Shown here piece after piece: positions 15,363 to 64,000 of a stretch of 64,000 nucleotides of DNA (position 1 is the first letter of the stretch; each line of letters begins with the position of its first letter). The position numbers and the translations under genes were made by a program. The stretch comes from Quercus robur (lineage: Eukaryota > Streptophyta > Magnoliopsida > Fagales > Fagaceae), in assembly GCF_932294415.1 (NCBI RefSeq), contig NC_065536.1:13044974-13108973 (forward strand). The letters run 5' to 3'. The notes beneath the pieces were generated by a model. It had not been told where the DNA came from. It ran no database searches and was given only the letters and a program-made list of their open reading frames with translations.

Positions 15363-16771
15363 TGTTGTTGGCGGGGCTGACTATCAGCCTCCACCAATAA
15401 AGAAGTTGATTTCTCATCAGTATTCGATACTTGAATGCGTTTCGAAGGTACCTCAAACTGACATTCTGCTTCAACATTTGTTCTTTTTTGCCCTGAGATT
15501 TTCTGCTCTGTAAATTGCCCCACTGAGTTAACCGGTCTGCTTTTTCGTGTCCAGCAATGAGGGCTGCGTGTTTTCACAATTGATGGTGAAGCCCTAGATG
15601 GATCCTGATCAACACGTGCGTTGCTTAGTTGCTGGTTGGTATCTTTTAAATATTCACGTGAGCTAGAGTCCATTATTACTTCAGCTGCTGAGTCACACTC
15701 CTTTTCCAAACATAACTCTTCAGCTAGATCATCATCAATATTATTTTGCACCGGCTGATCCTCATTAGGTCCCTTAAATGCTCCTTCAATCACGGTATTA
15801 ACTGGATATGATTACTAATTTTCAGTTTCAGCCGAGGTGTTTACTCCAGAGAATCCGTTGCACTTTAATGGTGAGTTAATGCTTCCCACGTAACGTTCAT
15901 CCTCACTGCACGCACGGTCCAACCCTCTTCCCCTCCCCTGCTGTGGCGGCTTGCCTGAAGCTTGGCTTGCCATGGTGGTCGTGCTGCCTTTCTTTTTTTC
16001 AGCATAATACCCAGGAACCTTGATAACATTCCTCTTTGATGGAATAAATGGTGGAGCTCTCAGCTGTGGACCAAACTCTCTTTGATCAATGCTCAGCGTC
16101 CCTTCACTCTCAATCCAGAGATCGCAATCTCGATCGTCATGAGTTAACCGGCCACACCAATAGCAAATATTGGGCAATCTTTCATATTTGAAGGACACCC
16201 AAATCTCTTTCCCATCATGCAGTGATATAAGGCGACCACGACACAATGGTAGAGATAAATCAATGGATACCTGTAGACGGATGAAGTGACTCGCATCAAA
16301 CACCCTATTTTCCTTTGGCCGAAACACCTGACCTATAACCTCACATATTTTTATCCCGGCTTCCACACTCATGTACTTGACAGGAAGTCCATGCACTTGC
16401 ACCCATAGGATCGTCCTCTCGAACCTGATCTCATTCAAAGGTTTATCACCTTCATAACGCTCCATTACTACCAGGTGTTTATCAAAACTCCATGGTTCGC
16501 TACTAATAATTCTTTCCACATCCTCTTCGTTATCAAAAGTGAATAAAATTTTATGGTCCTCAAACTTCTGAATCTTGAACCCACTCCTGGCTCTCCACAA
16601 TGGTGTAAAAGTTTTAGCTATTACATCCACACTGAGAGCTCTCCTTGTCAAGAATTTCGCAGCGATGGAGAATTCCTTGACAGTTTCCTCGTGAGTGAGA
16701 CTACACCCTGGCCCTTCTCTCTCGGAGAGGGTAAGGCGGTTCCAAGAATTTGCTAGCTCATCCATGATCAC
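15359..16771 (-). pseudogene. LINE ORF1 (DUF4283 / CCHC zinc knuckle), broken by two adjacent stops
   Basis: The first 318 codons (16,771-15,815) contain the DUF4283 region typical of plant L1 ORF1 and Gag-like proteins (E-R-T-I-L-W-V-Q-V-H-G-L-P region). A CCHC knuckle follows, C-Y-W-C-G-R-L-T-H-D-D-R-D-C. TAG and TAA at 15,812-15,817 end this frame. The same frame then stays open from 15,811 to 15,359, and its stop overlaps the ORF2 ATG by ATGA. The likely ancestral ORF1 was about 470 codons of RNA-binding protein. The distal part is low-complexity and has no recognised domain. Either the stops are inactivating mutations or the shorter ORF1 is natural. Confidence 0.8.
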
Positions 16772-38854: not shown

Positions 38855-39737
38855 TCAGGGACTAGAGGAGCTTGAAGTGTCTCCTGCGTCTGAGTCTGTC
38901 TGTGAACCATTTGGAGATAGTAAAGGTGCGAGCAGCTCTGTGTCGTCAGCAACATTTTGAGAATTGTGTTGGATGATAACGGAATTCTGAGGAGGACATA
39001 CGCATTCCACATGTACTCCCATCCTTGCAATCACAGGAGCACATTTTCCGTTTTCACTTACCCAGTGATCGATTTTACATGAAATCTCAACATGATTCCG
39101 ATCACCTTGCATCAAGTCTCCGAATCTCCTCTGTAATCGGCCGTGAGGTTCTCCGCGAAACCACAGATGATCACACTTCAATCCATAAAAATGCCGCGTA
39201 ACCATGAGACGTCGCTTACGACTATCGGTAGAAATGTGGATATGAAAAAGACAATTGATACTATCATCACGAATAGAACCGTGTTTATCATTATTAGCGT
39301 AACTATCCTTCAACGGAATTAGATGAAGAGCAACACAAACAGCAATTGATGGAAACTCAGGACCAACCCAGAATGATATGGAACTTTCAATGCTTTGATG
39401 ATTGATCCAATTCGGAATCTTCTTTCCTGGTACTGTAATATCATATATCTCTTCATAATCAAACAGATACATATCTAGAGTGGGAAAGAACTCATTATGA
39501 ATTGCGATGAACTTGGAGAGGGAGACCCGGGAAGAGCAATCAATCTGATTCGATAATTTGCGATATGAATGCGAATCCATTAATACTTTGTGTTTCACAC
39601 CTGAACATTTCATATTTGGTGAAAGCCCTAAAATTCTTCCAAACTGCATGAAATTAGGAATTTTAAGAAATTGAAGTTTAGCAAATCTAGTAAATGTATT
39701 TGCAAAGGTAACCAAAATTGTTTCTATTATTACTTTA

Positions 39738-39768
<31 letters not shown>

Positions 39769-42700
39769 CCTGAAGGATTAATTTTCTTAATGATTCTGAA
39801 TTCAACGATATGCAGTTTGTTGCATCTACAAGTCTTATACTTTCTGGAAGCTTTGGAATTTTCTTAAGGAACTTGGAATCTCAAATTACAAGCCAATTTA
39901 ATCTATTGAATCTGATAATGCTTTCTCTGAGGTTCAAATCTTTACTCCCTGATAATAGATATTTCTCTGAGTGGGTGAAGCAAGAAGTCAACTTTTTTAG
40001 AAAATTCAACTTTGGAAAACAATATTTATAAAAGCCACCGTAAGAATTGCACGTTGCTGCTTGTCTACCAATCCCCACGTCCTTTAGAAATTTGACATTA
40101 CCAAAAAGCAAGAGTTCGCGAATTTGCTGCAATTTTTAAATGCAACTAGGAAGTTGACACGAATAGAAACTGGAACCTATTTCTAATCGCTCAAGCCCAG
40201 TGAGATTCTCAATTGACGGAGGAAGCTCTCTAATAGCAGTGTGTCCTAGACTTAAAAACTTTAAATTTTCCATTTCTTGGGGAATATCGGGTAACCTTTT
40301 AATCCTTTTGCAATTAAAAAGATATAAATATTTAAGAGATTTCATCACAATACAACTTGGGAGAATTTGAAGTTCATCACAACTAAAGAGGTCCCAGCTT
40401 TCAAGCTTATCAAGACATCCAATAGAGTCATGAATCTTGACTAATTTTCTACAATTTCGGAGATCCAATTTCTTTACATTTGGGGTGGCACTCAATAAAT
40501 CGGGTAATTCCCTAATGTATTGATTGGAATTGAAATTCATATATGTCAAGTTTTTGCATTGTATCCTCTGTAGAAAAAAGAAAATCAAAATTTTTAACCC
40601 CAACAAACGTTATTAAAATATAGTTTAATAAAGTAATAATAATTATAAATAAATAAAAATGATTATACCTTGAAAAGCTTGTCCAATGTAACTCGACTTT
40701 CTGGCATGTTCAATGCAATGAGATTTTGAGGATCAAAATTAGGTGGTAAGGAAGATAAAGGAAATCCGGACCAATCAAGAACCCTTAATTCGTTAGGAAG
40801 ATATTTGAGACCTCTACAAATATCTACATTACTAACTATGAGGAACTTGAGATTTTTCATCTTTTCAAGACATTTAGGTTCTAATTTCATCTTTGATGAT
40901 TCAGGTGAGCATATCCTTATGCCTCGAATTTTTTCTGATCCCTAATTAGACAAAGCATCAAGTCAATCACGCTATACAATAAAATTCACTAAAGCGTAAT
41001 GACGGTTAATTTAAATAAGAACTAAACTAATAAAGTTAAATTTTCTTCAACATTTAAATGAAAAATAATCACTACATTTGCCATTAGAAAAAAGGTAGAA
41101 AATGAACCAAGATAATGCATACCATATTTTGTGTTAGTACTTTATGAACATCCTCATAACACCATAGCCTACTGCACTCTCCAGGCAAGTTTGGTGATTC
41201 CCGTTGAACAATGTCCCTACCCATTTGTTGTAGCAAGTCATGCATCAACAATTTATCTTATTGACCAACGGTTATTAGGCACTTATCGATAAGTCTTTGA
41301 ATTCCATGAATTGGATATAAATTGCAAGCATCCAGTATATCAATGACATACTCCTTAGGAAATCCCTCAAAGAAGCATGCAATATCAAGGAAAATATCTT
41401 TTTCAGTTTTATCCAATCCTACATAACTTATTTCAAGTATTTTTTTTATTTCTTCATTAGGAATTCTTTCATACTTTTCTACTGCACTTCTCCATTCAGG
41501 TTTAGTTCTTCCATACAAATCAGCACCAATTATTACTAGAGCCAACGGCAATCCCTTGGCATATTGTATAACTCTGTCTGCAAGTTCCAAATAATCATCT
41601 TTGGGTTTGTTGCTTTGGAAGGCGTGCATACTAAAAAGTTCAAGAGCTTCATCTTGATCTAATTCCTTAACCGAGTAGGTTGAACAACAATTTCCAAGAG
41701 TAGCTGCCAAGTGTTTGTCTCTTGTTGTTATAATGATTTTGCTTCCAGAAGCAAACCAATCACATCTTCCAAGCAAATTTTCTATTTGGATCCGTTTATC
41801 CACATCATCAAGAACTAAAAGGATCCTCATAAATGAAAGTCTTTCCTTTATCATATTGATTCCTCTCGATTTGTTACCCACCTTTAAATTTGTATTCCTT
41901 AAGATCTCAAAAAGAAGTGTCTCTTGTAGTTCGATTACACCAGCATTTGTCCCCGATCTTTCTCTTAAATTTTCTAGATAACAAAATCCATCAAATTCAT
42001 CACAAATTCTATAAAATAGCTTTTGCGATTGTTGTCTTACCAATTCCACTAGGGCCATAGATACCTATTATATGACCATCATTTGACTTAATATCTGAAA
42101 GTATGGTCATTACATGATAATTTATTCCAACTGGGTATCGTGCGACAAATAATGGTGAGCAGTTTAATTTAAAATTTGAGATCCTTTCAACAATTCCTTG
42201 GATAAATTCAAACTCGCTACAACTGTCATTCATAGAATATGAAAACAATATATGATTTAGATTTTTATAATATATACACACACACAAAATTTAGAAAACA
42301 AAATTGAAAATGAACTAAATTTAAGATGTTCAACTTGTGAATTAAATTTGAATAATTATCAAATAAAGTAAGTGGCATGTACAAATTCATAAATCTATAA
42401 CTATCATTATGTTAGCATATATATATATATATATATATTAGTTTTAGGGATCTAGACATAGTTGTCATGACGTATTGAGCATTCAATCATCAAGGTGGTG
42501 TGGTAGTTCATTGGTTCAACCATTAGATGATTGACTCAACCGTTGTACTAATGATAAATTTATTTTAAATATGAACAAATTAAAATAAATTAAAAAATAC
42601 AAAAAGAATATAAATTATAAAAAGATGAACTTACATTCACTTTAAACATAAATATATAGGCATTACATAGATTGAAATTAATAGGATATTATTGTTCATA

Positions 42701-42904
42701 TATTGAATTTATATATGTTTATATAAATAATTACTAAATAATAAGATACTTGAATTGATCATTTGACTACTCATTTCAAAGTTTAAAAGCTAAAGACTTA
42801 AAAGACCATAAATAAAAGTGCATAATTGAAGGAAAGTATAGTAACTAATTTGATAAAAAAAATTAACATTAAAGACCAAACGATTTGAAAAAAACCATGT
42901 GATT

Positions 42905-42927
42905 TAGTATTTTTCTCTTTCTTTCTT

Positions 42928-42968
<41 letters not shown>
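42905..42968. repeat. Long poly(T) in TNL intron 1
   Basis: A (TTTC)n start grades into about 40 T residues. It could be an old retroposon tail; I could not find flanking duplicates. Confidence 0.6.
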
Positions 42969-42973
<5 letters not shown>

Positions 42974-43080
42974 CATCAATTTTCATGATTTAATCAACTT
43001 TTTGGTTGTGAAACTAACGTTTCTGTCATAACGTCCAGATTTTCATATTGTTTACCAACTTGAGGGTTCAACCATTGTTT

Positions 43081-43112
43081 GACTCAACAACAACCAAAAA
43101 AAAAAAAAAAAA
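43081..43112 (+). mobile_element. Tail-only retroinsertion with 11-bp TSD
   Basis: aaccattgttt at 43,070-43,080 repeats at 43,113-43,123 around gactcaacaacaacc plus an A run. The TSD is short, so chance is possible. Confidence 0.5.
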
Positions 43113-43174
43113 AACCATTGTTTTGGTACGATTATGATAACTATACATTTAGCATAAAGTTGCAATGAAAATCT

Positions 43175-43195
43175 TTTTCTTTTTTTTGAGTGTGA
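43175..43195 (-). mobile_element. Tail-only retroinsertion with 16-bp TSD
   Basis: gttgcaatgaaaatct at 43,159-43,174 repeats exactly at 43,196-43,211 around a T-rich run plus gagtgtga. It lies in TNL intron 1. Confidence 0.75.
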
Positions 43196-43595
43196 GTTGC
43201 AATGAAAATCTAGTTACTGATAATTGAAACTTGTTACAACTTACAACTCATTTTTAATAATAGAACTAAATTATTAAGGAGGAAACATTTTTTAAATAAA
43301 TAATATGTGGGAGAAACACCTATTTAATTGGTAAGGTAATTTTTTATTTTATTTTTAAAATCTTTCTATTTCTACATTGCCTACTAACTTCTATACTAGT
43401 GTTTTCTCAAAAAGGAAAAAGAAAAAGAAAATCCTTCTATCGGTGTAGATATGAAGAAAAAAAAATTCATTCATAATTTGGCCAAAAAACTAACACTGAT
43501 AAATTAGTGGTAATTGTTGTTTAACAATAAAATCAGTTATCATAACAAACCAGTGAAACTCATAAAAAGTACAATAGTTGTCATTAAATTCATAC

Positions 43596-44089
43596 CTATG
43601 TTGGTAATGCCAACCAGATATATTTGCAACTTCAAATAAAGCTTCCCTGCAGCTCTGCACCTTGTAATCCTTTAATTTTTCTTCATGTTTAGATAGTGCT
43701 TCTCCAAACTTTCCTTTTTGGTTACGAACCTCTGATGGATCTATGTTGTAAAAAATCGGTAGCACTAACTGGTCTTTTTTCTTACACTCAACAATCTTGG
43801 TAAGTTCATCCAAGCACCATTTGGAGGATGCATAGTTTTCAGAGAATACAATTATTGAAATCCTTGAACTTCCAATGACTTTGAAAAGTCCTACAGAAAT
43901 TTCTTCCCCCCTTTGAAGGTTATTATCAATAAAAGTGTTAATACCCCGTTGACACAAGGCATTATACAAATGACCGACAAAACCAAGACGGGTATCTTCA
44001 CCTCTAAAACTCAAGAAGACATCAAATTTCTTGGGTTGGTGGGTGAAAGAAGAAGATGAGGCTTCTTTGCAGGTCACAAGAGCCATCAA
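43596..44089 (-). CDS. Intact TIR exon of the TNL homologue
   Basis: About 165 codons from M-M-A-L-V to a donor at 43,596 (ag before gtatga), with no lesion. If the first intron is retained, the frame continues to 43,490 (199 codons), giving a TIR-only protein. TIR domains of this type are NAD-cleaving signalling enzymes, and the expected glutamate lies in the S-S-K-W-C-L-D-E-L motif. Whether it is expressed is unknown. Confidence 0.7.
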
Positions 44090-45196: not shown

Positions 45197-46337
45197 CTAC
45201 CGTCGAATCTTTTTCAATAACCACTTCCTCCGTGCTGTAACATCCATGGCCACGAACATCTTGGCCTTTCTCTCATCTTCTAAAAGTTCACAATCCTCCA
45301 AGAAGATCTCATCATCCATGTCAGGAACGGTTTGAAGTGCTGCAACTATACATTCTATTAAGCTGTAGTCTTTGTCTTCCTCAGTACCCAAATATGTTTT
45401 TACTACACATGGCTTCCCCTCAACTGCCTCTTGGGTCTCTTTCTTGATGGTTCTCCTAACCTTTTGGATACATGCTGAGGTTGACAAAGGAGCAGATTTT
45501 CGCTTTCTTTTCTGATGAAATATTTCAAACTCAGTAGCGGGAGATAGCGCCTCTCCAATTATATCGTCAATCCCCATCCCCAAGGTGTTGGTGTTGATCT
45601 CCATTTTTACGTCGAAATAACTTGATCTACTATGCTGACTTTCATTACCATGAATCAAGCACAAATCACAATAATCACCCAATATCTCATCTCTGTATGT
45701 AACTGCATCTGGATGATCCTGCAAAATGCCATTTTTAAACAAAAGCTGATCAAAACTATACAGTTCAATGTTCAACTATCGATAAGATTATGTTCTGCAC
45801 CCTACGTTATGCACCAACATATAGTTTACTTCATGAAGACTGTTTATCATTTCATCAAGCGGGAGAGAAAGAAAGAATGTGCGTGCACGCACACATGTTT
45901 ACCATACTGTGGCATGCTCAGTGCTCTTTAGTCATAACCAAGGGAAACAAAAAGAGATAACCCTTTATCCTAACAACATTACAAATAAGAAAAAATAGCA
46001 CCTTGATATAAGCTTCCCAAACATCATCATCAGCTGTCATTGTTTAGCGAATTCCATCCCAAGCAAAGCCATTATGATTGAGGATATCTGTGATGTCCGT
46101 ATACTCTTTCCTCAAGCTCCAATAACGATTTTCTAGTAAATCTGTCACAAAGGAATCCAAATTTTTTACTAAATGATGCATTCATCCAGGTCCAAGCTTG
46201 AGCATTGTATGTACGACCAATCTTATTCCCTCTGTGCAACTGTTCTAACATAAGGACAATAAAATAACGGTCCATTTCCCTTGTCCAATTTATCCTCAGA
46301 GGATCATTATTACCAGGGGACTGGTAATCCTCTTCAC
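45197..46337 (-). pseudogene. Myb/SANT gene remnant: module 6 and last exon
   Basis: The last exon (45,718-45,197, 522 nt) is intact and nearly identical to 1,468-947. The module 6 A exon (46,337-46,002) is 2 nt shorter than its counterpart, a frameshift near 46,140. It also has an in-frame TAA near 46,045, where the parent has a sense codon. No upstream modules remain. Confidence 0.85.
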
Positions 46338-46779
46338 CTACAACTTTAAAAATAACTGTCATTACATGAGAGGATTTATTCTGGAGGCATACAGTACCAA
46401 AAAAAAAGTAATAATAATGTTGTTTCATACTGTTTGATAAAATTAATAGCTTCAAACATTACTTGAAATGGGCAAATTTCAGTTCTTTTGTATTAAACTT
46501 TCAGGAAAACTGAGTCAAGTAGTTGTATTAGCATCAAATTAAAACTTCCTTTTTGCATGGATAGTGACAAATTAATACTTATTACAACAACAAAGTTGAC
46601 AAATTATTTTTAGTAATTATACTAGCAAATGGACAACTATTGCACCTGTAAATTAAACATGCTAGTGCATTTTTCAGATGGTCCTCCTCTAATATCACAC
46701 GTGTAGTTCAAACATTTTCTGAGAAGTCCTTAACTGATTGTACGAATCTTGTCTACCTAAAGGTAATATTGCAATACAA

Positions 46780-51350: not shown

Positions 51351-52229
51351 GTGAAGGATTCTTACACTACAAATTTATGAATGCAGCAAATTAGTAATTT
51401 CATATTAATTTTTTAATGTTTTCTGATTAAAAAAAACTTGTTGCCAAGTGAAAATTCAACAAAATTTGGCCATTCAAGTCAAAAAGCTAATTGGGCATAT
51501 AAAAAATATAAATGAAAATTACATAAATCATGGTACAAACTTTTAATAAAAATTGTAATATTTACAAAATCATTTTTCCAAATAGATTTGTGGTCTATAA
51601 ATTAAGATGGTTTCAACAGCTTATTGAATTTGGTTTCAGAAAGAAGAATTTTTAACCAAAGATTTCAACATCTAAAATTACATCCAATTAACACCGGTGC
51701 TAAACTACTAATCACACAGTACAACTTTCTAGGTTTGATTAACACTCCCTTGAAGACAAAAAAAGAAAAAGAAAAAAGAATTCATCAAGAAAATTTAGCG
51801 TTACTCACTTAGGTTTCAACCTCCATTCTTGAACAACTTTTTATTGCTACACTTGTTAAGTGCTTCCACTACAAACAACTGCTCCATTTGCTGGTTTTTG
51901 TTTTGCTTTGGTTCGGGCAGCACATTCACCAAATTGAAATATGAAAATAGTTCTGGAAACAAGCTTTTGCTTAAGAGACTCATGATGGAAACATTTAGAT
52001 GTGGTGTGATAATTGATAAGCATAACTAGTTAAGAGTTGTAGGAGGTTATGTTAGAGGTAGGTTTTTGTTTTGGAGTGGGAGACTAATTAAACGTGTTTG
52101 TGTGGTTGTTTGTTCTTTTAAAATGAAAAATACTATCAAACGTGGAGTCTTTTGGGTTAATATTGCAAAAACTGAAATTAATTTGCGTTATAGGTACTAT
52201 TGAAACTTATTTGGGATTTTGAGGAGAGA
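51351..52229. other. Intergenic, no gene seen
   Basis: AT-rich with short open frames only and no family resemblance. Confidence 0.45.
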
Positions 52230-53014
52230 GACTGAATTTCGGTATCACCATTGCCGAAATTCAGCCAAAAGTATGAGAGAGAAGATGTAAAAGGAGGAAA
52301 GAGAAAATGTTGAATTTCGACAACGTGGATACCGAAATTCCTCTGCCCAGTTCTCTGCCCGAACCCTCTCTCCTGTGTGCCCGAGTGTGGAGTGCCCAGG
52401 GAAAAAAAAAAAAAGGCAATTGCGGTAATGCAATTGCCGAAATAGAAAAGAAAAAGAATTTTTTTTTTTTTTTGGTAATTGTGGCCATGGCAATGCCGAA
52501 AATGAAAAAAAAAAAAAAAAAAGTGGTTCCAAAATATCTGAAAGAGTAAAAAAAATGTAATGTCCACAATATTTTTACAACATTTTCACAATAAATCACA
52601 TTAATTAATTATTATTAGTTAAAAAAATTTGTGACAAAGTAATTGTGGCAATAGGATTGCCGAAAATGTGAAAAAAAAAAAAAGAAAAGAGAGAAAAAAA
52701 AAAAGAGAGAATTGTGGCAATGGGATTGCCGAAAATGTGAGGAAAAGAAAAAAAAAAAAAAAAAGAATTGTGGCAATGGGATTGCCGAAAATGTGAGGAA
52801 AAAAAAAAAATAGATAATTGTGGCAATGGGATTGCCGAAAATGTGAGAAAAAGAAAAAAAAAAGTGGTTCCAAAATATCTAAAAGAGTAAAAAAAAAGTG
52901 TAATGTCCACAATATTTTTACAACATTTTCACAATAAATCACATGTAATTAATTATTATTAGTTAAAAAAATTTGTGGCAAAGTAATTGTGGCAATAGGA
53001 TTGCCGAAAATGTG

Positions 53015-53054
<40 letters not shown>

Positions 53055-53309
53055 TTGTGGCAATGGGATTGCCGAAAATGTGAGGAAAAAAAAAAAAAAA
53101 AAAGAAGATAATTGTGGCAATGGGATTGCCGAAAATGTGAGGAAAAGAAAAAAAAAAAAGTGGTTCCAAAATATTTGAAAGAGTAAAAAAAAGTGTAATG
53201 TCCACAATATTTTTACAACATTTTCACAATAAATCACATGTAATTAATTATTATTAGTTAAAAAAATTTGTGGCAAAGTAATTGTGGCAATAGGATTGCC
53301 GAAAATGTG

Positions 53310-53344
<35 letters not shown>

Positions 53345-54459
53345 ATTGTGGCAATGGGATTGCCGAAAATGTGAGAAAAAAAAAAGAAAAAGAAAAAGAA
53401 AGAGAATTGTGGCAATGGGATTGCTGAAAATGTGAGGAAAAGAAAAAAAAAAGTGGTCCCAAAATATTTGAAAGAGTAAAAAAAAGTGTAATGTCCACAA
53501 TATTTTTACAACATTTTCACAATAAATCACATGTAATTAATTATTATTAGTTAAAAAAATTTGTGGCAAAGTAATTGTGGCAATAGGATTGCCGAAAATG
53601 TGAAAAAAAAAAAAAAAAAAAAAAAAGTAAGAGAGAATTGTGGCAGTGGGATTGCCGAAAATGTGAGGAAAAAAAAAAAAAAAAAAAAGAATTGTGGCAA
53701 TGGGATTGCCGAAAATGTGAGGAAAAAAAAAAGAGAGAATTGTGGCAATGGGATTGCCGAAAACGTGAGGAAAAGGAAAAAAAAAAAAAATTTGTGGCAA
53801 TGGGATTGCCAAAAATGTGAGGAAAAAAAAAAAGGATAATTGTGGCAATGGGATTGCCGAAAATGTGAGGAAAAGAAAAAAAAAAAAAGTGGTTCCAAAA
53901 TATCTGAAAGAGTAAAAAAAAGTGTAATGTCCACAATATTTTTACAATATTTTCACAATAAATCACATGTAATTAATTATTATTAGTTAAAAAAATTTGT
54001 GGCAAAGTAATTGTGGCAATAGGATTGCCGAAAATGTGAAAAAAAAAAAAAAAGAGAGAATTGTGGCAATGGGATTGCCGAAAATGTGAGGAAAAGAAAA
54101 AAAAAAAAAAAAGAATTGTGGCAATGGGATTGCCGAAAATGTGAGGAAAAGAAAAAAAAAAATTTGTGGCAATGGGATTGCCGAAAATGTGAGGAAAAAA
54201 AAAAAAAAAAAAGATAATTGTGGCAATGGGATTGCTGAAAATGTGAGGAAAAGAAAAAAAAAAAAAAAGTGGTTCCAAAATATCTGAAAGAGTAAAAAAA
54301 AGTGTAATGTCCATGATATTTTTACAATAAATCACATGTAATTAGTTATTATGAGTTAAAAAAATTTGTGACAAAGTAATTGTGGCAATGGATTGCCAAA
54401 AATGTTTAAAAAAAAAAAAAAAAAGAGAGAATTGTGGCAATGGGATTGCCGAAAATGTG

Positions 54460-54490
<31 letters not shown>

Positions 54491-54765
54491 AGAAGAGAAT
54501 TGTGGCAATGGGATTGCCGAAAATGTGAGGAAAAGAAAAAAAAAAAAGAATTGTGGCAATGGGATTGCCGAAAATGTGAGGAAAAAAAAAAAAAGAATTA
54601 GGCGAATTTTTTTTTGTAATTGTGGCAATGGTATTGCCGAAATAGATGAAATTTTTTTTGGGATAATTGTGGCAATGTCATTGCCGAAAATGGGGAGGGG
54701 AATAATGGAATGGAATTGTGGCAATGACATTGCTGAAATAGGTGAAATTTTTTTTAAAAAAAAGG
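52230..54765. repeat. Hierarchical satellite built on the palindrome GGCAAT-GGG-ATTGCC
   Basis: There are two levels of repetition. The short unit (about 45-65 bp) is attgtggcaatgggattgcc, gaaaatgtgagg and a variable A run, seen roughly 28 times. The long unit (about 295-435 bp) is a constant ~120-bp segment starting gtggttccaaaatat followed by three to six short units. Its starts are at 52,523, 52,864, 53,160, 53,453, 53,889, 54,269 and, degenerate, 54,765. The first short unit of each long unit reads ggcaataggattgcc, so the order is inherited. The long antisense open frames here (F/H/N-rich) are artefacts of the repeat. Confidence 0.9.
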
Positions 54766-54804
54766 TGGTTGCCAAAATCTGGGGAGGAATTTAAAAAAAA
54801 AAAA

Positions 54805-54975
54805 GTGTTACGCTCACAATATTTTTATAATATTTTCACAATAAATCACAGCTAATTAATTATTATTAGTTCAAATTTGAATTTATCACTATATTACTTT
54901 TTCAATCTAACAATAACAACCTCCACTTAAAATTTGTTGTTAAAATATTGTAAAAATTGTGTGTACCTATCATTT
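54805..54975. mobile_element. MITE whose left half matches the satellite constant segment
   Basis: gtgttacgctcacaat...ttcacaataaatcac is the same text as the constant segment of the satellite. Here it continues to an inverted right end (aatattgtaaaaattgtgtg). The complete element is probably the source of the satellite segment. Confidence 0.6.
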
Positions 54976-54994
54976 CTTTAAAAAATAAAATGTG

Positions 54995-55190
54995 GAATGG
55001 ATTTGTGACAATGGCATTGCCGAAATAGGAGAAAAAAATTTGTTCCCATTGCCGAAATAGAGGAGAGAGATATAAAAAAAGTACGCATATTATTCTTTCA
55101 ATATTTTTTTGACTGAACCAGTTTGGTTTGTCATATTCTTTTAGAAATAGATAAGGATAGATTCAAGTACACTATCTGCTACATTGAATC
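54995..55190 (+). repeat. Left boundary sequence of the Mutator-like region
   Basis: It contains caatggcattgccgaaata, gaggagagagata and gtacgcatat, then gactgaaccagtttggtttg. The same string of motifs recurs at 60,015-60,300, directly before the transposase gene. Confidence 0.65.
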
Positions 55191-55194
55191 TTTT

Positions 55195-55570
55195 TTTAAA
55201 GTACACGCTGTAAAAAAAAACAAAAAAAAGTACATAGATTCTTATAGAAGAAAAAAATGACTGATGTGCACGCTGTAAACAAAAAAACAAAGAAAGTATA
55301 CAGATTCTTACAATAGAAAAGAAAAAATGATTGATGTGCACACTGTAAACCAAAAAAAGCAAAGAAAGTACATAAATTCTTACAATATAGAAGAAAAAAT
55401 TTATTGATGTGCACACAGTAAACCAAAAAAACAAAAAAAAAAGTACATATATTCTTACACTACGGAAGAAAAAAAATGATTGATGTGCACGCTGTAAACA
55501 AAAAAAAGCAAAGAAAGTACATAAATTCTTACATGTACGCTATAAACAAAAAAAAAAGCAAAGAAAGTAA
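55195..55570 (+). repeat. Tandem array of a 65-75 bp repeat (copy 1)
   Basis: About six units have the core gtgcac(g/a)ctgtaaac, with copies near 55,201, 55,266, 55,337, 55,409, 55,485 and 55,537. Each is followed by an A-rich stretch and gtacatagattcttac. The same unit forms arrays at 59,450-59,970 (direct) and 63,830-64,000 (inverted). Confidence 0.9.
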
Positions 55571-56410
55571 ACCAAAGAAAACAAAGATTCAATCAACCAG
55601 TCACCTCAACTCCTCATCTCATCTGATTTTTATTCTCTGCAGAAAATATTTTTTGCCACGCCTAAATCTCCAACGTAATTCTTTGTTGTCTACTCCTCAT
55701 CTCATCTCCAACATGATTCTTTCTTGTCTGCTCCTCATCTCATCTGATTTTTATTCTCTACAGAATCTATATTTTGCCACGCCTACTACACCACGTGATT
55801 CTTTTTTGTCTTTTTATTGTTCAATTGGTAATAAAAGATAAGAGAAGTGCGAACTAGAATTGCATCTCATCACAATTCCTCAGGTTGCAAAGTTGCTCTT
55901 TTACTTTGTTTCAGTGTGCCACAACTAAAGATTGTAAGTTTTTTGTTAATGTAAGTTTTTTTGCTTTGCTTATTAACTTATAGCTCTAGAAATTAACAGA
56001 TTTATTATTATTGTATAAACATGTGCTTTGTAAATATTAAAAGCTAATACATTGTAAAATATTATGTATTGTTGTAATTGTAATTAATATTATTTGTATG
56101 CCTATGTTTATGATAATTGTTGTTGTTGTTGTTCTTGTTCTTGTTCTTGTTATTCAAATTTTAGATTAATGAATTATTTTTTATGGTTATCTGATTGTGT
56201 GTTTTTTTTTTTTTTTTTTGCAAGTATCACTCTATAATTCTCACTCTTTTAGTTGGCATCACAATTGTGGTAAGCATCTCAATTATAGTTAATACTAATT
56301 ATTGTGTGTATGATTATTTTTGCTAAAACTATTATTATTATTATTAAAAATTTTGCTTCATAAATCCTTTATTTGAGTTTCTTTCAATTTTATTGAAGGA
56401 TATATTTGAA
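55571..56410 (+). promoter_or_regulatory. Upstream region and probable 5' UTR of the PMD gene
   Basis: No coding frame. The sequence shows pyrimidine-rich leader-like stretches and several GT-AG candidates (for example gattgtaagt near 55,934 and cttttag near 56,252). A non-coding first exon with an intron is plausible but unproven. Confidence 0.35.
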
Positions 56411-59002
56411 ATGGAGCAACAACAATATCACATCTCTAATGACGCAATGGAAGGCAATGTACGTTGCAAGATCCAAATTTATTAATGTCCTAATAATCTC
56501 TACAATTATTCAATTTACATGAAAATAATTTAAACATTAGCAATATAACATTGTATATTTTTTTTTAAAATTCAATTTCAGGTTTCCACCTTACGAGTGC
56601 GACCCCAATCGTTTGCACCCCTCCCGCAGTTAGGCGAGTGTATCACCCCATATTTGTATCAATGTAGATTATACCGTGTTACCCGCCTACCACATATAGA
56701 TATTGATTGGAGTCTTATCACTTCTTTGGTAGAGCGATGGCAATCTAGTACCCATACATTTCACCTACCTAATTGTGAAATGACTATAACTCTACAGGAT
56801 ATAGCAATCCTTACAGGATTGCCTATTGATGGCAATGCAGTGTGCGGGCCAATAAATTTGATTTGGAGTACAGAATGTCGTGATTTACTTGGGGTGACAC
56901 CACCTGCAACAGCATTGAATTTTGGTGGCCTTAAAATAACATGGGTAAGGGATACATTCTCAAACCAACCAGAGGGTGCCAATGCTATAACAACCCAACA
57001 GCATGCTAGGGCATACATGTTTCAGGTTTTGGCTTTACTATTTGGAAATAAGAGCCAAAGTAGATTGCATTGCTGCTTTCTCAAGCTGTTAGAGGACTTT
57101 GGTGTAGCTGGGGAATATAGCTGGGGTAGTGCTACACTTGCTTACCTTTATAAAGAGCTGTGTACTGCTGCTATTAAAAAAAGCACAGAGATTGCAGGTC
57201 CTGTTTTCATATTACAATTATGGGCGTGGGAGCATCTTCCATATCTGACCCCAATTCCAATAAATCCAGTAAATTTAAATGGCGACGACCCATACGGTTG
57301 CAGGTATAATATTTACTTTTTATTTATATACAATTTTGTAATCCTTGATACTTCCAAATCCTAAATATTGTATGACAATCATTAATTGTGTATAGGTGGG
57401 ATACCAAGAGAACGTTTACTCACACACCAACACATGTTTTACATGCGTACCGTTCTAATCACGATACACATAATAATAAACAGGTAATATATCACAATGC
57501 ATCAATGGTTAATTTACTAGTTATATTATTGTCTTGATTGATTATAACATAGTTATTGTAATTGGAATTGCAGGTTGTTTGGACACCATACGATAACTAT
57601 ATGCATCCATGGTGTCTTGCAGAAAGAAATATATGGACTACAACAGCGCCATTGTTGTGCTTCCAAATTGTAGAGTATTACCACCCAGAAAGAGTCATGC
57701 AACAGTTTGGGTTGTTGCAAAGATGTCCAAGGTGGCCTACAGACAATTTGGATAAATCCGTGCATTGTGTAAAGTTGACAGGAAAGTCCACTGTCAATTG
57801 GAGAATGCAGCATGACCAATACTACCAGCGTTGGAACATGCGAGCTGAACTTCTAGTTGGAGATGACCATTTTGATTCAAGTGTGGACTACGCAACATGG
57901 TACCAGCAAAATGGTCACCTATTCACAACACCAGAAGCGGCTGCCCATATGTACCAGGTTATTATTTTAGTTTTTTCAATAATATTGCACTAATATTGAT
58001 AACAAGTTATTTACACATCCAAATACTGCACTAATATTGATAACAAATTATTATTTTCGTTTTTTCAATAATATTGCACTAATAAATGTTATTTTCCTTT
58101 TTTTGCGGCAGCAAACTGAGGTCAATAATATGTTAAATTTAGCTGTTGCAAACCAACAGAGGAATGATCTCACAGCACAACAAGTCCTTCCACTAATAGT
58201 AGAGGGCCTTACCCGATTGAAGTTGTCAATGGAAGCAAATATTTCCTCCGTCCCTACTGAAAGGGTGACAACCTTTAGGCGACGACAAAGGTGCCAAGGA
58301 AGACAGCTGCAAACCTATACTGAAACCCACTCGTCCACCTCTGCACAACGTGGACAATGTGGAAATGATGATGCCGGACCATCCACCTCCGCACAACACA
58401 ATATGTACAGCTCTACCCAAGCTGGGCCATCAACATTTGCTGGTAATGAGCCAACCACCTTCAGTGAGTATAATCCAATTAATGTGAACGAGTATTGCAT
58501 GAATTTATATCAACAGATTGGATCATCCACTTCCATAGGACAAGGATTTGAGGGTTTGTTTAGTTATGACCATTATCCCCAACCTAATTCAACACCTTCC
58601 TCTTATCACCCATCGCCACCTCCATCTTATGCTGGGCAATACAATTATGGCCAAGATAGCCAGTACAACTATGATTTCTGCACACCACAACCTTCCCAAC
58701 CACCCCCTCATGTTGGTGATTTTTGCACGCCACAAAATACATGGGCATGTGCTCCAAACTCCAAGGAAGAGGCTTCCGTAACAGACTCTGAGGAAGATGC
58801 CTCAAATGAGGACAGTGGGGAAGATGCAGAAGATAGCCAAGATATGGAGGTATCTTCAGATAATGAAGATGACGACTGTGGTAATTATCAAACAAAGATT
58901 GATATTAGAACACAGCCGAGGCGCATGGGGAGAAGTCCTGTGCAAGCACGAAGGTACCCACAACGAGAAAATAGGCATCCTCCATGTTGTGGAACACAGT
59001 AG
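56411..59002 (+). CDS. Plant mobile domain (PMD) protein, MAIN/MAIL1-like, apparently intact
   Basis: Five exons follow from splice consensus and matching phases: 56411-56458, 56582-57303, 57396-57483, 57574-57957 and 58112-59002. They give 2,133 nt and 710 residues with no stop or frameshift. Exon 1 codes 16 residues from ATG (M-E-Q-Q-Q-Y). Exons 2-4 hold the PMD fold (L-V-E-R-W near the start, M-T-I-T-L-Q-D at about residue 75, G-L-P-I-D-G, then W-E-H-L-P, and D-P-Y-G-C-R-W across introns 2 and 3). The last exon is a Q/S/P- and acid-rich tail ending in a basic R-R-Y-P-Q-R. The same domain occurs in the nuclear proteins MAIN and MAIL1 and in 'PP7 long form homologue' annotations, and is often found on transposons. 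It lies 2 kb upstream of a MURA gene in the same orientation and between copies of one tandem repeat, so it is probably a passenger or accessory gene of the Mutator-like unit. The molecular role is unknown. Confidence 0.85.
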
Positions 59003-59420
59003 AAATTGAATGTACCCCAACGTCGCAATCACTAAACAATGTAAAATGACTGTTTATTAAAAATATATTAAAGTATTATCATTATTTATGCATCATTGTA
59101 AAAAAAAATATTATGCCTAGATAGTATACATAGCACATTATACTACTAACCATAAGACCTTTGTGGAAACAAGAAATGTGTACTTATTTTTTCGCATTTG
59201 AAATTAGTGTCCAATTAATCTAATCATACATCTATTTACTATAATTGTCCATTCCTAATCCGACATAGAATCTATGTGTAGCCACAACTATAGGCGCATA
59301 ATAGGTGGAATAAAAAAGGTGTCAAACTTCAATAAATGGGAAATCTTTTGTCCTTTGCATGATGGCTACTGTGGTGTACATTTTTATTTTCATTCTCCAC
59401 AGCCTCTCTTCCAAACCCTC
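59003..59420 (+). other. 3' region of the PMD gene, no other gene
   Basis: AT-rich with a possible poly(A) signal context (tttattaaaaatatatt at 59,053). No domain or repeat until the array. Confidence 0.4.
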
Positions 59421-59449
59421 GTAAAAGTGTCAAAGACAAAAAAGAAGTA

Positions 59450-59970
59450 CATAGATTCTTATTCTCCACAGCCTCTCTTCCACAGCCTCTCGTACATTGA
59501 TTCTTATTCTAAAGTGCACGTTGTAAACAAAAACAAAAAAAAGTACATAGATTCTTATAGAATAAAAAAAATGACTAATGTGCACGTTGTAAACAAAAAA
59601 AAACAAAGAAAGTATATAGATTCTTACAATAGAAAAGAAAAAATGATTGATGTGCACACTATAAACCAAAAAAAAGCAAAGAAAGTACATTGTTTCTTAC
59701 AATATAGAAGAAAAAAATGATTGATGTGCATACTGTAAACAACAATAAAGTATATAGATTCTTACAATACCGAAGAAAAAAATGATTGATGTGTACACTG
59801 TAAACCCAAAAAAGCAAAGAAAGTACATAGATTTTTACAATATAGAAGAAAAAAAATTGATTGATGTGCACGCTGTAAACAAAAAAAAAAAACAAAAACA
59901 AAGAAAGTACATAGATTCTTACATGCACGCTGTGAACAAAAAAAGCAAAGAAAGTAAAAAAAATAAAACA
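59450..59970 (+). repeat. Tandem array of the 65-75 bp repeat (copy 2, direct)
   Basis: About seven units, with gtgcac-type cores near 59,514, 59,580, 59,651, 59,726, 59,791, 59,866 and 59,932. It has the same orientation as the 55.2 kb array. The text after both arrays matches (caatcaacca, then tcaactcc). Confidence 0.9.
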
Positions 59971-60014
59971 AAGAGTCAATCAACCAATCACTTCAACTCC
60001 TTATCTCATCTGGT

Positions 60015-60300
60015 TTGTGGCAATGGCATTGCCGAAATAGAGGAGAGAGATATAAAAAAAAGTACGCATATGAAAAAAAGTATCCTATAAGGATAGATTC
60101 AAGTACAATGACATTGCAGAGATTCTTTTCAGTATTTGTGGCATTGCAGAGATTCTTTCAGTTTTTTTTTGTTGCCGAAATAGAGGAGAGAGAGATAAAA
60201 AAAAGTACCCTATAAGGATAAATTCAAGTACAATGGCATTGCAGTGGCATTGCAGAGATTCTTTCAGTATTTTTTTGACCGAAGGAGTTTTGTTTGTCAT
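60015..60300 (+). repeat. Second copy of the boundary sequence
   Basis: ggcaatggcattgccgaaat, gaggagagagata, gtacgcatat and tttgaccgaaggagttttg match 55,005-55,140. An internal duplication is visible (ttgccgaaatagagg at about 60,026 and 60,172; cattgcagagattc three times). Confidence 0.7.
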
Positions 60301-60424
60301 GTTCTTTTATGGTAAAAGTACCTATAATGTCACTGAATTTAACTGATATGAAACTTGCATCCTATTTTAACAGCACTAATGTCACAGAAATTTTCACAGT
60401 TCTTATTTTCTACTCTTTTTCCCC

Positions 60425-60430
60425 TATAAA
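60425..60430 (+). promoter_or_regulatory. TATA box of the MURA transposase gene
   Basis: TATAAA in cccctataaattcc, followed by a leader that reaches a consensus donor (aag before gtgagt at 60,568). Only position and consensus support it. Confidence 0.5.
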
Positions 60431-60568
60431 TTCCATCAACCTTCTTCTCCACTCTTGTTCCCCTCATAATTTTACCAACCATTTTCAAATCATGCGTGCC
60501 ATATATTCTACAAACAACTATAAGTAACAACACTTGCAAATATCTATCCGTTCGTTATCTCTTAGAAG

Positions 60569-60945
60569 GTGAGTTATATTTCTTAAGTAGTTACTTTTCT
60601 TTTTATAATATTCATGTTAATATGTTTTAGGGGCATAGCTAAGCATGAAAATCTTTTTTTTGTTAAATTATTTGTTCATGCAAATCTTGTTTCTGTATTA
60701 TGTGTTTTGCAACATGAACTGATTTGTATGATATGTTTTACATTATTTATTAATGAATTCTTGCCTAAATTTCAAATTTGACGTATATTTCCTTAAAGAA
60801 ATACTTAGTTTGTTAGCCTATAATATACACGTATGTTTAATACTATTATTATCAGTGAATATTTTTAATGGATTACCTTCTTGTATTGCATTGTAATGGT
60901 TGTGTTGTGTTAATTTATTAATACTATTATTATGTTTTAATGTAG
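60569..60945 (+). other. 5' UTR intron of the transposase gene
   Basis: The donor gtgagt follows 60,568 and the acceptor ag is at 60,944-60,945, immediately before the ATG at 60,946. This is a common arrangement for MURA genes. Confidence 0.5.
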
Positions 60946-63681
60946 ATGGCAGAAAAGTTATTCATTTTTCTCATCCATTTCAATGGAATAATTAAACATG
61001 GAGAAAATGGGGTTTATTACGAAGGGCCACCTCCTTCTATGCTTCCATTAAGCCGGGGTGTTACATTTGAAGATCTATGTGATGGAGTAGCATCCACGCT
61101 TCATATAAACAGAGAAGATTCAAAATTGACTATTTGGTATAGATTTCCATTTCAATGTCATCCACATCCTGTGACTTACCAGCAAGTTTTGGTAGCAGAT
61201 GATAATGGTGTCAATGCAATATTCGATATGTTAGACCGCCAATATGGATTTGTAGGTGCAGAGTTATACGTGGGTGTAGAGCCTATAAGAAGCCATCGAG
61301 ATGTTTTCCCCATTCGATATGCCAACGAAGGACTGAGTGCATCGTTTTGTTATTCACATAGCAAGCACTTCCATGATCCATATGCCACTCATATTAGTCA
61401 TTATTCTCAAGATGCGGCTCATTCCCCAATCAACATTGGCGGTGCTGACTATCATGCTCCATATACCCATGTTGCAATTGAGGACCAACATGTTCCTTCT
61501 CGGCCAATGAACAACAGTGATGCTGACTATGATAATCCAACTGAGCATGTCACACAAGAGACTACTTGTTTTGAGTTTGAAACTCAGTATGACCAAACCG
61601 CCACTCAGAGAGCTGCTAATGATCCCAATGATACACATCGCATAGCTGCTACTACTGAAAATGCGGTCCATACATTATCAGAAAGGATGCGGACCATGGA
61701 TAGTGATGACCAACTTGATGACGATGAGGTCCTTGATGATATTAGAGATGAACAAGAGCCTCCAAATGAAGGTAATCATGAAAGCAGTCCAACTATGGCA
61801 GTCCATCAACCTTCATCACTAAGCTTTTCACAGAACACGTGGGATAATATGATTGATCCAACCCTACCATTTGAAAAGCCCACTCAGAGTATTTGGGACC
61901 CTACCCAAGAGTTTTATGTGGGCTTGCTTTTTGCCGATAAGGATGAACTACAAGCTGCTGTTAAACGCTATCACATCAAGAGGAACCAAACATTTTGTGT
62001 AAGAGAGTCAAATCCAGAATGTTGGTCTGTAAGGTGCAAAAATTGTTCTTGGCGTCTTCGAGCATGCTTCCGGGCTACATATGGGTTGTTTGAGGTTAGG
62101 AAATACAATGGTCCACACACATGTACAGAGTCCACTCTCACACAAGATCACGAGCAATTAGACACCCATGTTATTGAGAAAGAGTTGAGGGATGTTGTCA
62201 AAAATGATCCAACCATAAAGATTGCTTCACTTCAACAGACTCTTTACAATAAGTACCAATACAGGCCTTCTTATTTTAAGGTGTGGGAGGCAAAAGAGAA
62301 AGCAATTGGTAGAGCGTTTGGTGATTGGGACAAATCTTACCAATTATTGCCAAAATGGTTGAAAGCTTTGACTGATTCAAACCCGGGCAGCAGGGTTATT
62401 TGGAGAACAATACCTGCTACTATGCCAGGCTGTGCGATATTCGAGAGAGTGTTCTGGGCTTTTGGTCCATCAATTGAAGGTTTTCAACATTGTAGGCCAG
62501 TAATTAGTATTGATGGGACTTTCCTATATGGAAAGTACAAAGGTACGTTATTGATTGCATCAACGTGGGATGGTGACAACAGACTTTTTCCACTTGCCTT
62601 TGCCATTGTGGAGAAGGAAACTGATGATAGCTGGTATTGGTTTTTGCGTTGTATTTAGATTAATGTCACTAATCGAGAAGGGTTATGTGTCATATCTGAT
62701 CGTCATCCTGGTATAATGGCAGCGATACAGACTATATGTCAATCGACATGTTGGTATCATCGTTTTTGCCTTCGCCATGTGGCTAGCAATTTCAATCAAC
62801 AAATTGGGAATAAAAACTTGAAGGCTATGGTAATGTGGGCAGGCATGGAGAATCAGTTACGAAAGTATCAAATCACTAGGGATAGAATTACTCAATTAAG
62901 TGTAGATGGTGAGAAGTATTTAAGGGAAATACTAGTGGAAAAGTGGACATTAGCATACGATGGTGGACATCGTTATGGGGCAATGACCACAAACTTGTCT
63001 GAAAGCTTCAACGGAATTCTAAAGAGTGCTAGAAATCTGCCCATAACTACATTAGTTGAACTTACATACTATCGTTGTGTCGCCTACTTCGCCGATCGGT
63101 ATACTAAGGCATGTGCAGAGGTTACTACCGGTGAACGCATTACGGCCTATGCAAAAAATAAATTCAATAAATGGGAAAAAAAGGCACCAAAGCATTCAGT
63201 TATTGTGTTCAGTCATGAAGATGGTTTGTTTGAAGTCAGAACACCAATAAACCCTAACTCTGCATATAGGGGTAATCATCGTCATGAGTTAAATTTGAGG
63301 CAGAACACTTGTAGTTGTCAAAAATGGCAGGTTTATAAGATTCCGTGCTCACATGTCATTGCCGTGTGTAAATATCAAGGGATCTCTGCAATGCGATATA
63401 TCGACCGTTGCTACCATTTGGAAGAACAAGTTGCTTGTTATGCACCTAGATTTCGCATGGTTCCAGACAGTGTACATTGGAATGAGCCTAATTTCCCGGT
63501 CTTGTATCCTAATGTCAAGCTGCGCCGTGAAAAAGGTCGACCAAGAACAACTCGGCTTCGAAATGAAATGGACGAAGGGGCAGAGCATCAACCAAGGCCA
63601 TTGTGCAGTCTCTGTAGGCAAGAAGGCCATAATAGAAGAACATGCCCCACTCGAACTGTGGCTAGCTCCACTAGTGGCTAA
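60946..63681 (+). CDS. MURA-type Mutator transposase, one in-frame TAG
   Basis: One frame of 912 codons including the stop at the end. Order: an N-terminal ubiquitin/PB1-like region (1-110), an acidic linker, a Mutator DNA-binding zinc domain (about 325-410; C-x2-C with H-x-C), the MULE catalytic domain with D at residue 523 (S-I-D-G-T-F), D at 585 (I-S-D-R-H-P-G) and E at 686 (L-S-E-S-F-N-G), a SWIM zinc motif (C-S-C...C-S-H) and a C-terminal CCHC knuckle (C-S-L-C-R-Q-E-G-H-N-R-R-T-C). It would cut and join element ends. A TAG at 62,656-62,658 (codon 571) separates the first catalytic D from the other two catalytic residues. The frame is otherwise clean. Alternatives are readthrough, a sequencing error, or a tiny intron ending at that AG. 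Confidence 0.9.
62656..62658 (+). other. In-frame TAG in the transposase
   Basis: The frame is open for 570 codons before and 340 after. The following residues (I-N-V-T-N-R-E-G-L-C-V-I-S-D) are normal for the family. It therefore looks like a single recent substitution. Confidence 0.85.
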
Positions 63682-63737
63682 ACTAAATGACCCAACATAA
63701 GTATTCAATCTACTTCAGTGGATTGGTTGGACTGTTG

Positions 63738-63764
<27 letters not shown>
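63738..63764. repeat. Poly(T) downstream of the transposase gene
   Basis: About 27 T residues, with no flanking duplicate seen. Confidence 0.7.
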
Positions 63765-63768
<4 letters not shown>

Positions 63769-63829
63769 ATGTTTTTAGGAGTTGGACCATATTGTTAGTT
63801 TGTGCAATATGGTCCATATGTTATGATGT

Positions 63830-64000
63830 TACAGCGTGCACATCAGTCATTTTGTAAGAATCTATGTACTTTCTTTGCTTTTTTTTGGTTCACAGTGTGC
63901 ACATTAATTATTTTTTCTTTTCTATTGTAAGAATCTATATACTTTCTTTGTTTTTTTTTGTTTACAGCGTGCACATCAATCATTTTTTTCTTCTATAAGA
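63830..64000 (-). repeat. Inverted array of the 65-75 bp repeat (copy 3), cut by the window edge
   Basis: Reverse-orientation units have cores acagcgtgcacatc near 63,832, cagtgtgcacattaat near 63,892 and acagcgtgcacatcaat near 63,965. Together with 59,450-59,970 they form inverted ends around the transposase gene. The outer terminus lies beyond the window. Confidence 0.9.

Follow-up and report, generated by a model that had tools for sequence, protein, structure and literature searches.

In a 64,000-nucleotide stretch of Quercus robur DNA (contig NC_065536.1, positions 13,044,974 to 13,108,973; hereafter the window), we identified one copy of a large plant Mutator-like element that carries, besides its MURA transposase gene, a second gene with a plant mobile domain (PMD). 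As seen in other copies in the host genome, PMD and MURA insert as one unit between matching ends. Overall, the family is most probably an autonomous-type Mutator-like element of approximately 12.7 to 14.5 kb, with PMD and MURA in tandem, arrays of a 72-bp unit and ends that start GAGTCTTTTGGG; the roles proposed below for the genes and arrays are putative.

PMD and MURA between the ends of one element

The host genome (785.7 Mb, 42 contigs) was searched for copies, and nine large ones (cp2 to cp10) were taken from the best matches to a query covering the PMD 3' end and the internal array, B. PMD and array B are thus present in these copies by choice, whereas MURA, the ends and the target duplications are not. 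All nine showed the order terminal repeat, S block, array A, PMD, array B, S' block, MURA, array C, S block and terminal repeat. Target duplications of 9 to 10 bp flank every copy (six exact, three with one mismatch), within the 8 to 11 bp characteristic of Mutator-like elements, and no terminus was found at array B in any of the nine, allowing up to 2 mismatches. Without insertions, such as those contained in cp7 and cp8, the large copies measure 12.7 to 14.5 kb; part of MURA is missing in cp8. When elements longer than 10 kb were paired from outer-end matches (cp3 to cp9 and cp11, with several matches left unpaired or unfetched), seven of the eight carried the genes. The left and right terminal 230 bp agree at 0.95 to 1.00 in cp2 to cp10 (201 bp in cp2); in cp3, 230/230 terminal bases are identical and the duplication is exact, suggesting that this copy moved recently. 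The satellite of cp10 had no match to that of the window at the cut-off used, and its terminus matched over 139 bp at 82%. The ninth copy, cp9, is a partial tandem duplication (C4:27632996-27657132). There, a MURA gene cut near its end is followed by another left terminus flanked by the same 12 letters, as would result from a double copying of target plus element.

These copies bear on both explanations given in the initial annotation, which was made from the window alone. One large element carrying PMD is what all nine fetched copies show, each with both genes between the same ends. A capture of PMD by this element is conjectural: PMD is also present in diverged relatives, so that any capture would predate this layout. 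The other option, a Mutator-like element nested beside a PMD-bearing one, does not agree with the nine copies that carry both genes.

The left end of the window copy lies at 52145, a boundary that recurs in other copies, whose right ends show its mirror image. The outer part of the left terminal inverted repeat (52145..52420, plus strand) starts GAGTCTTTTGGG, and the letters just outside it (52136..52144) presumably represent the 9-bp target duplication on its left side. Inside the repeat follow the palindromic satellite GGCAATGGGATTGCCGAAA (52420..55060, plus strand), mirrored beyond array C in the other copies and weak in cp10, and the S block (55003..55180, plus strand), which forms the inner part of the terminal repeat and is found inverted near the right end in 9/9 large copies. 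This block resembles the S' block (60013..60320, plus strand), which was delimited by similarity and copy comparison between array B and MURA. Matches of the other copies to the window run from approximately 52145 through 64000. Past the point equivalent to 64000, all seven compared copies show the left end of the window mirrored, stopping 1.4 to 2.7 kb further on at the same terminus, GAGTCTTTTGGG, although the mirror match is short in cp10. The window copy is cut at 64000, inside its right repeat, and the right end is therefore seen in the other copies only; a mirrored repeat ending GACTC, then TCAAACGTG, is the expected right end that would complete it.

Since the copies carry the left end mirrored on the right, the satellite at 52.2 to 55.1 kb belongs to the element, and the possibility that 52 to 55 kb is a foreign flanking satellite was ruled out by copies that share and mirror that stretch. 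Hence the left boundary, initially drawn near 55 kb, moves to 52145, and ends described as arrays in place of plain inverted repeats turn out to be long inverted repeats that contain arrays. These repeats, of the long terminal inverted kind that marks Mutator-like elements and observed in other copies, reach approximately 1.6 to 3.3 kb and are satellite filled, with the palindromic satellite and a 72-bp array inside. A 9-bp duplication had been anticipated near 55,000 or 59,400; no duplication of 9 or 10 bp was found between 55130-55215 and 59003-59520, which fits the boundary at 52145. An inverted end on the right of a unit with PMD alone was also sought at 59003-59492 and not accepted, the best score being reached by 6 of 200 shuffles. 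The outer 276 bp of the left end gave at least 41 genome matches with 40 of 532 candidates scored, and the family is therefore larger than listed.

The genes, the arrays and the derivatives

The PMD gene (56411..59002, plus strand) has five exons (56411-56458, 56582-57303, 57396-57483, 57574-57957 and 58112-59002), modeled from splice sites and Pfam matches. Its four introns are GT-AG, and the 710-amino-acid reading frame contains no stop. The protein matches PF10536 over profile positions 3 to 347 of 347 (E = 3e-73), so that the apparently intact five-exon gene of the initial annotation was recovered. When exons were scanned singly, pieces of PF10536 fell in exons 2 and 4, and the splice model is supported by the domain being whole in the spliced protein. 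At E values up to 10, the only other Pfam match was to one weak, unrelated family, and there was no VANC-type match. In the PDB, only two hits were obtained, both weak and in a different family (E = 0.08 and 0.17); no relatives were detected in the viral contigs and prokaryote genomes scanned, and Rfam gave no matches at gathering score in 50 to 64 kb. The predicted fold of exon 2 alone (mean pLDDT of 35) was not used. Between PMD and 64000, the only frames of at least 120 amino acids were MURA and one over array B, a search that a gene of short exons would escape. Unlike a host MAIN/MAIL gene, which lies outside transposons, PMD lies between the element ends in 9/9 large copies.

The MURA gene (60946..63681, plus strand), identified from frames and Pfam, stays in the same frame throughout and is interrupted once, by an in-frame TAG at 62656-62658, in agreement with the earlier description of a nearly intact MURA head to tail with PMD. 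DBD_Tnp_Mut, MULE and SWIM domains passed their respective cut-offs, which a zinc knuckle match did not; a MURA-type transposase with MULE and SWIM domains is what a Mutator-like element would encode. The TAG falls between the first and second acidic motifs, which we take to be catalytic. Since its own MURA frame is broken, the window copy would need MURA from elsewhere; PMD can still be read.

Array A and its inner flank (55181..55629, plus strand; units at approximately 55181-55585) lie upstream of PMD, and array B and its inner flank (59394..60016, plus strand; units at approximately 59514-59945, with a degenerate start near 59394) are internal, upstream of MURA. Array C (63829..64000, minus strand) starts the right terminal inverted repeat and is cut by the window edge. 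All three were delimited by repeat comparison and consist of one unit of approximately 72 bp (65 to 76 bp), direct in A and B and inverted in C, as had been annotated. Identity is 87% over 358 bp for A and B, 93% over 152 bp for A and C, and 92% over 153 bp for B and C, scores reached by 0 of 200 shuffles in each case; A against C in the wrong orientation was at chance level (119 of 200). Counted inward from the outer edge, most units are in register: the in-order pairing of units 1 to 3 of A and B ranks 2 of 120 assignments, C2 best matches B2 and A2, and C1 best matches A1. The exception is C3, which is closer to A5 than to A3 or B3. Over the 152 bp common to the three arrays, C agrees with A against B at 6 sites and with B against A at 2, too few to decide. 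Array B and its flank match array A over approximately 450 bp, with no terminus at B. Array B was present in 9/9 large copies, themselves selected by a query that included it. The 72-bp unit count in the large copies is nearly constant (16 to 17), while the satellite count varies widely.

To assess the condition of the genes, 11 PMD/MURA pairs were aligned (the window, cp2 to cp8, two of cp9, and cp10). PMD was undamaged in the window only and MURA in cp4 only, and both genes were damaged in three diverged relatives, d1 to d3. Between the window and cp10, dN/dS was 0.22 for PMD (shifted frames, 0.76 and 1.47) and 0.34 for MURA (shifted frames, 0.48 and 1.01), and 48 of the 87 differences in PMD fell at third codon positions. 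Between the window and d1 to d3, dN/dS values of real and shifted frames did not separate. Pooled dN/dS was dropped as proof of selection, one of the shifted frames being no higher; constraint is thus supported by one comparison only, that of the window with cp10.

Seven small elements of 1.28 to 2.70 kb (s1 to s4, two in s5, and s6) retain both satellite and termini. Exact duplications of 9 to 10 bp flank six of them, and s6 has none. With up to 3 mismatches allowed and both strands scanned, the 72-bp core motif was absent from all seven and from cp11, against 16 to 17 in each of the nine large copies. Because these array-free derivatives have exact duplications, movement in trans needs no 72-bp arrays, whose presence follows that of the genes and not the ability to move. 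The 14.1-kb cp11 (C37:60413415-60427538) shares the ends of the family, is flanked by an exact duplication of 9 bp and contains no PMD, MURA or array. It does contain two copies of a 312-amino-acid frame with zinc-knuckle-like motifs by eye, and the one copy scanned gave one Pfam match, below the cut-off.

Eight MURA genes had no PMD match nearby, and two of them were fetched. The MURA-only copy (C35:44080342-44086218; 5,877 bp) opens with just 23 bp of left terminus, joined to S' at the window equivalent of 60113, and continues with MURA, arrays and a full right end; by eye, 8 of 9 flanking letters agree. Its MURA is 99% identical to that of the window, with a one-base gap, suggesting a derivative. 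The second (C41:30454311-30459310) runs from array A and the PMD upstream region into the middle of MURA, PMD and array B being deleted internally. Neither starts at array B, and both are most simply deletion derivatives. MURA-only copies ending at the 59.4-kb array, named in the initial annotation as the mark of two mere neighbors, were thus not seen, the MURA-only copy starting with the terminus and S'.

Gene order, proposed roles and alternative explanations

In MuDR-like elements, the second gene faces the transposase gene. The window and 9/9 large copies are instead head to tail, and convergent order was found in d2 and d3 (PMD exons 80 to 89% and MURA 89 to 93% identical to the window), in which MURA faces PMD. 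Relative d3 has approximately 10 array units upstream of MURA, one core motif per terminal repeat and a second array beyond its right end; d2 has only a few motifs upstream of MURA. In both, an array or its remnant lies on the upstream side of MURA. The closer relative d1 (94 to 96% in the three largest PMD exons and approximately 97% in MURA) is head to tail, with satellite, S, an array, flank and S' between the genes. A search with PMD exon 2 gave at least 40 matches (40 of 55 candidates scored) and one with MURA at least 43 (40 of 296 scored). Among the 40 PMD exon 2 matches listed, 25 were head to tail with a MURA match, 5 were convergent and 10 were unpaired, at distances of up to 18 kb; identity to the window was 84 to 91% in convergent and 92 to 100% in head-to-tail matches. 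Pairing by the PMD 3' end, which left out array-only matches and split pieces, gave 24 head-to-tail, 4 convergent and 2 unpaired cases in 30 of 61 matches. The 13 unpaired MURA matches comprised 2 second pieces, 2 paired through the PMD 3' end and 9 that correspond to the eight genes mentioned above.

We infer that convergent order is the older one, because PMC6446971, in the table available, lists PMD in antisense in most members of the MUDR group. Diverged relatives would thus retain PMD and MURA facing each other with an array in front of MURA. In the window lineage, the array would also have joined both terminal repeats, an added step given that the terminal repeats of d3 lack an array, and MURA together with a copy of the array would have turned round, leaving array B in the middle. 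As for function, MURA would move the element by recognizing the outer repeat, possibly along with the satellite. The 72-bp arrays are probably control regions of PMD and MURA, since array sequence precedes MURA whichever way the genes are ordered and precedes PMD in head-to-tail copies. PMD is probably a helper that the element retains, with protection from silencing by the host as its most likely, and plausible, role. A further proposal is that PMD acts as a sequence-specific anti-silencing factor, a VANC counterpart of independent origin, which would bind the 72-bp arrays in front of PMD and MURA and at the ends and keep them unmethylated so that both genes are expressed, the arrays being copied into the ends and moved with MURA as the genes need them; in this full form it is tentative and, on balance, unlikely.

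Several observations weigh against one element with two working genes and this history. None of the 11 aligned pairs has both genes undamaged, and pooled dN/dS against cp2 to cp10 was 0.42 for PMD and 0.51 for MURA, with one shifted frame giving 0.42 and 0.38. The duplication of the window copy itself is not seen, its right end lying beyond 64000, and the nine large copies were picked by their match to the PMD 3' end plus array B. The MURA-only and PMD-deleted copies show that PMD can be lost. The promoter and anti-silencing roles are conjectural: the DOWN site, in the form printed for MORC1 in the part of PMC9899485 consulted, was not enriched in the arrays, nor was the VANC21 motif, which is absent from 55181-64000. 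Relative d3 lacks a clear target duplication and has one core motif and no array in each terminal repeat, no left end could be located for d2, and the polarity of the presumed inversion follows from sequence divergence, not from a rooted tree.

An insertion of a MURA element, running from array B to array C, into a PMD element or next to one is suggested by B and C alone, which make a plausible inverted pair (92% over 153 bp), and by the existence of a MURA-only copy, and the window alone cannot decide; yet in 9/9 large copies elsewhere PMD and MURA occur together, in unchanged order, and the duplications lie beyond PMD; none has a terminus at array B, and the MURA-only copy starts at S', which refutes such neighbors for the copies examined and makes them extremely improbable. 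That PMD is a passive passenger, kept only through its position between the ends, is possible if rather doubtful. The pooled dN/dS, equal to that of one shifted frame, the damage to PMD in all ten other aligned pairs and the one MURA-only copy with its near-exact duplication agree with it, whereas PMD occurring in both gene orders, the constraint between the window and cp10, with 48/87 differences at third codon positions, and the table of PMC6446971, in which numerous plant Mutator clades are listed with PMD, argue against it. Finally, the 72-bp arrays could be transposase binding sites, with array B a working internal end. Long Mutator repeats do carry transposase sites and promoters, according to the portion of PMC3310237 consulted, and units are mostly in register at all three places; against this, 7/7 small derivatives lack the 72-bp unit, six of them having exact duplications, and no terminus occurs at array B in nine large copies, so we consider it quite unlikely. 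The preferred reading remains one element with PMD and MURA in tandem, its arrays linked to the genes.

Elsewhere in the window, a TNL-type disease resistance gene lies in pieces at 38855-44089 on the minus strand (NB-ARC and winged-helix matches, the rest by eye), and long minus-strand frames at 11250-16771 resemble a non-LTR retrotransposon by eye. Frames at 947-2201 and 45197-46455, near-identical by eye and approximately 44 kb apart, share an At2g29880-type C-terminal domain and are apparently a duplication.

Comparison with known systems

Host PMD proteins silence transposons. The present family offers a test case for a transposon-borne PMD, with a separate and still readable PMD gene, gene-linked arrays, array-free small derivatives, a MURA-only derivative and two gene orders.

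The table of PMC6446971, the part consulted, places PMD in most members of several plant Mutator-like clades (VANDAL, MuDR-9_OS, MULE-Monocots, MDR, MUDRAVI2 and MUDR). As in the window element, these combine MURA with SWIM or CCHC, inverted repeats, 9-bp duplications and an extra PMD. However, their repeats span 14 to 421 bp, against approximately 1.6 to 3.3 kb of satellite-filled repeat here, and their PMD is often antisense, whereas the window family is head to tail with an internal array. The PMD-C fusions of grasses and Amborella, in the available text of PMC5418596, likewise have a PMD borne by a Mutator-like element, but one described as fused to the transposase, while the window PMD is a separate five-exon gene; the same text speculates that Mutator-borne PMDs counter silencing.

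Extra internal terminal repeats in Mutator-like elements are already in print. The multiple-terminal-repeat elements in the sections of PMC3310237 consulted hold additional terminal-repeat sequence internally, similar over at least 100 bp, to which array B of the window family may correspond. Among 12 distinct solo-repeat elements of tomato, one occurred in another copy, and only one such element resembled a transposase gene; the window family, in contrast, is a transposase-coding element with an internal piece and many copies, and its array B represents the inner part of the repeat only.

In VANDAL elements, as far as the excerpts of PMC5735166 and PMC10398659 describe, VANC binds motifs that have grown as tandem repeats in noncoding DNA. 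Both systems have tandem repeats in noncoding DNA near genes, and an extra gene that fights silencing is VANC in VANDAL and only proposed for the window PMD. They differ in that the PMD protein has no VANC match at E values up to 10 and the VANC21 motif does not occur in 55181-64000. The nematode Tm1 Mutator/Foldback element shares composite terminal repeats filled with tandem units and 9-bp duplications; its units are approximately 14 bp, its transposase is Phantom-like, and PMD is unmentioned in the parts of PMC3169594 consulted. A literature search, from which subscription papers were outside scope, returned no element with a separate PMD gene, such terminal repeats and an internal array, a weak negative. 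PMD in Mutator-like elements is thus already known, and the contribution of this family is that both genes move together and are turned round relative to diverged relatives.

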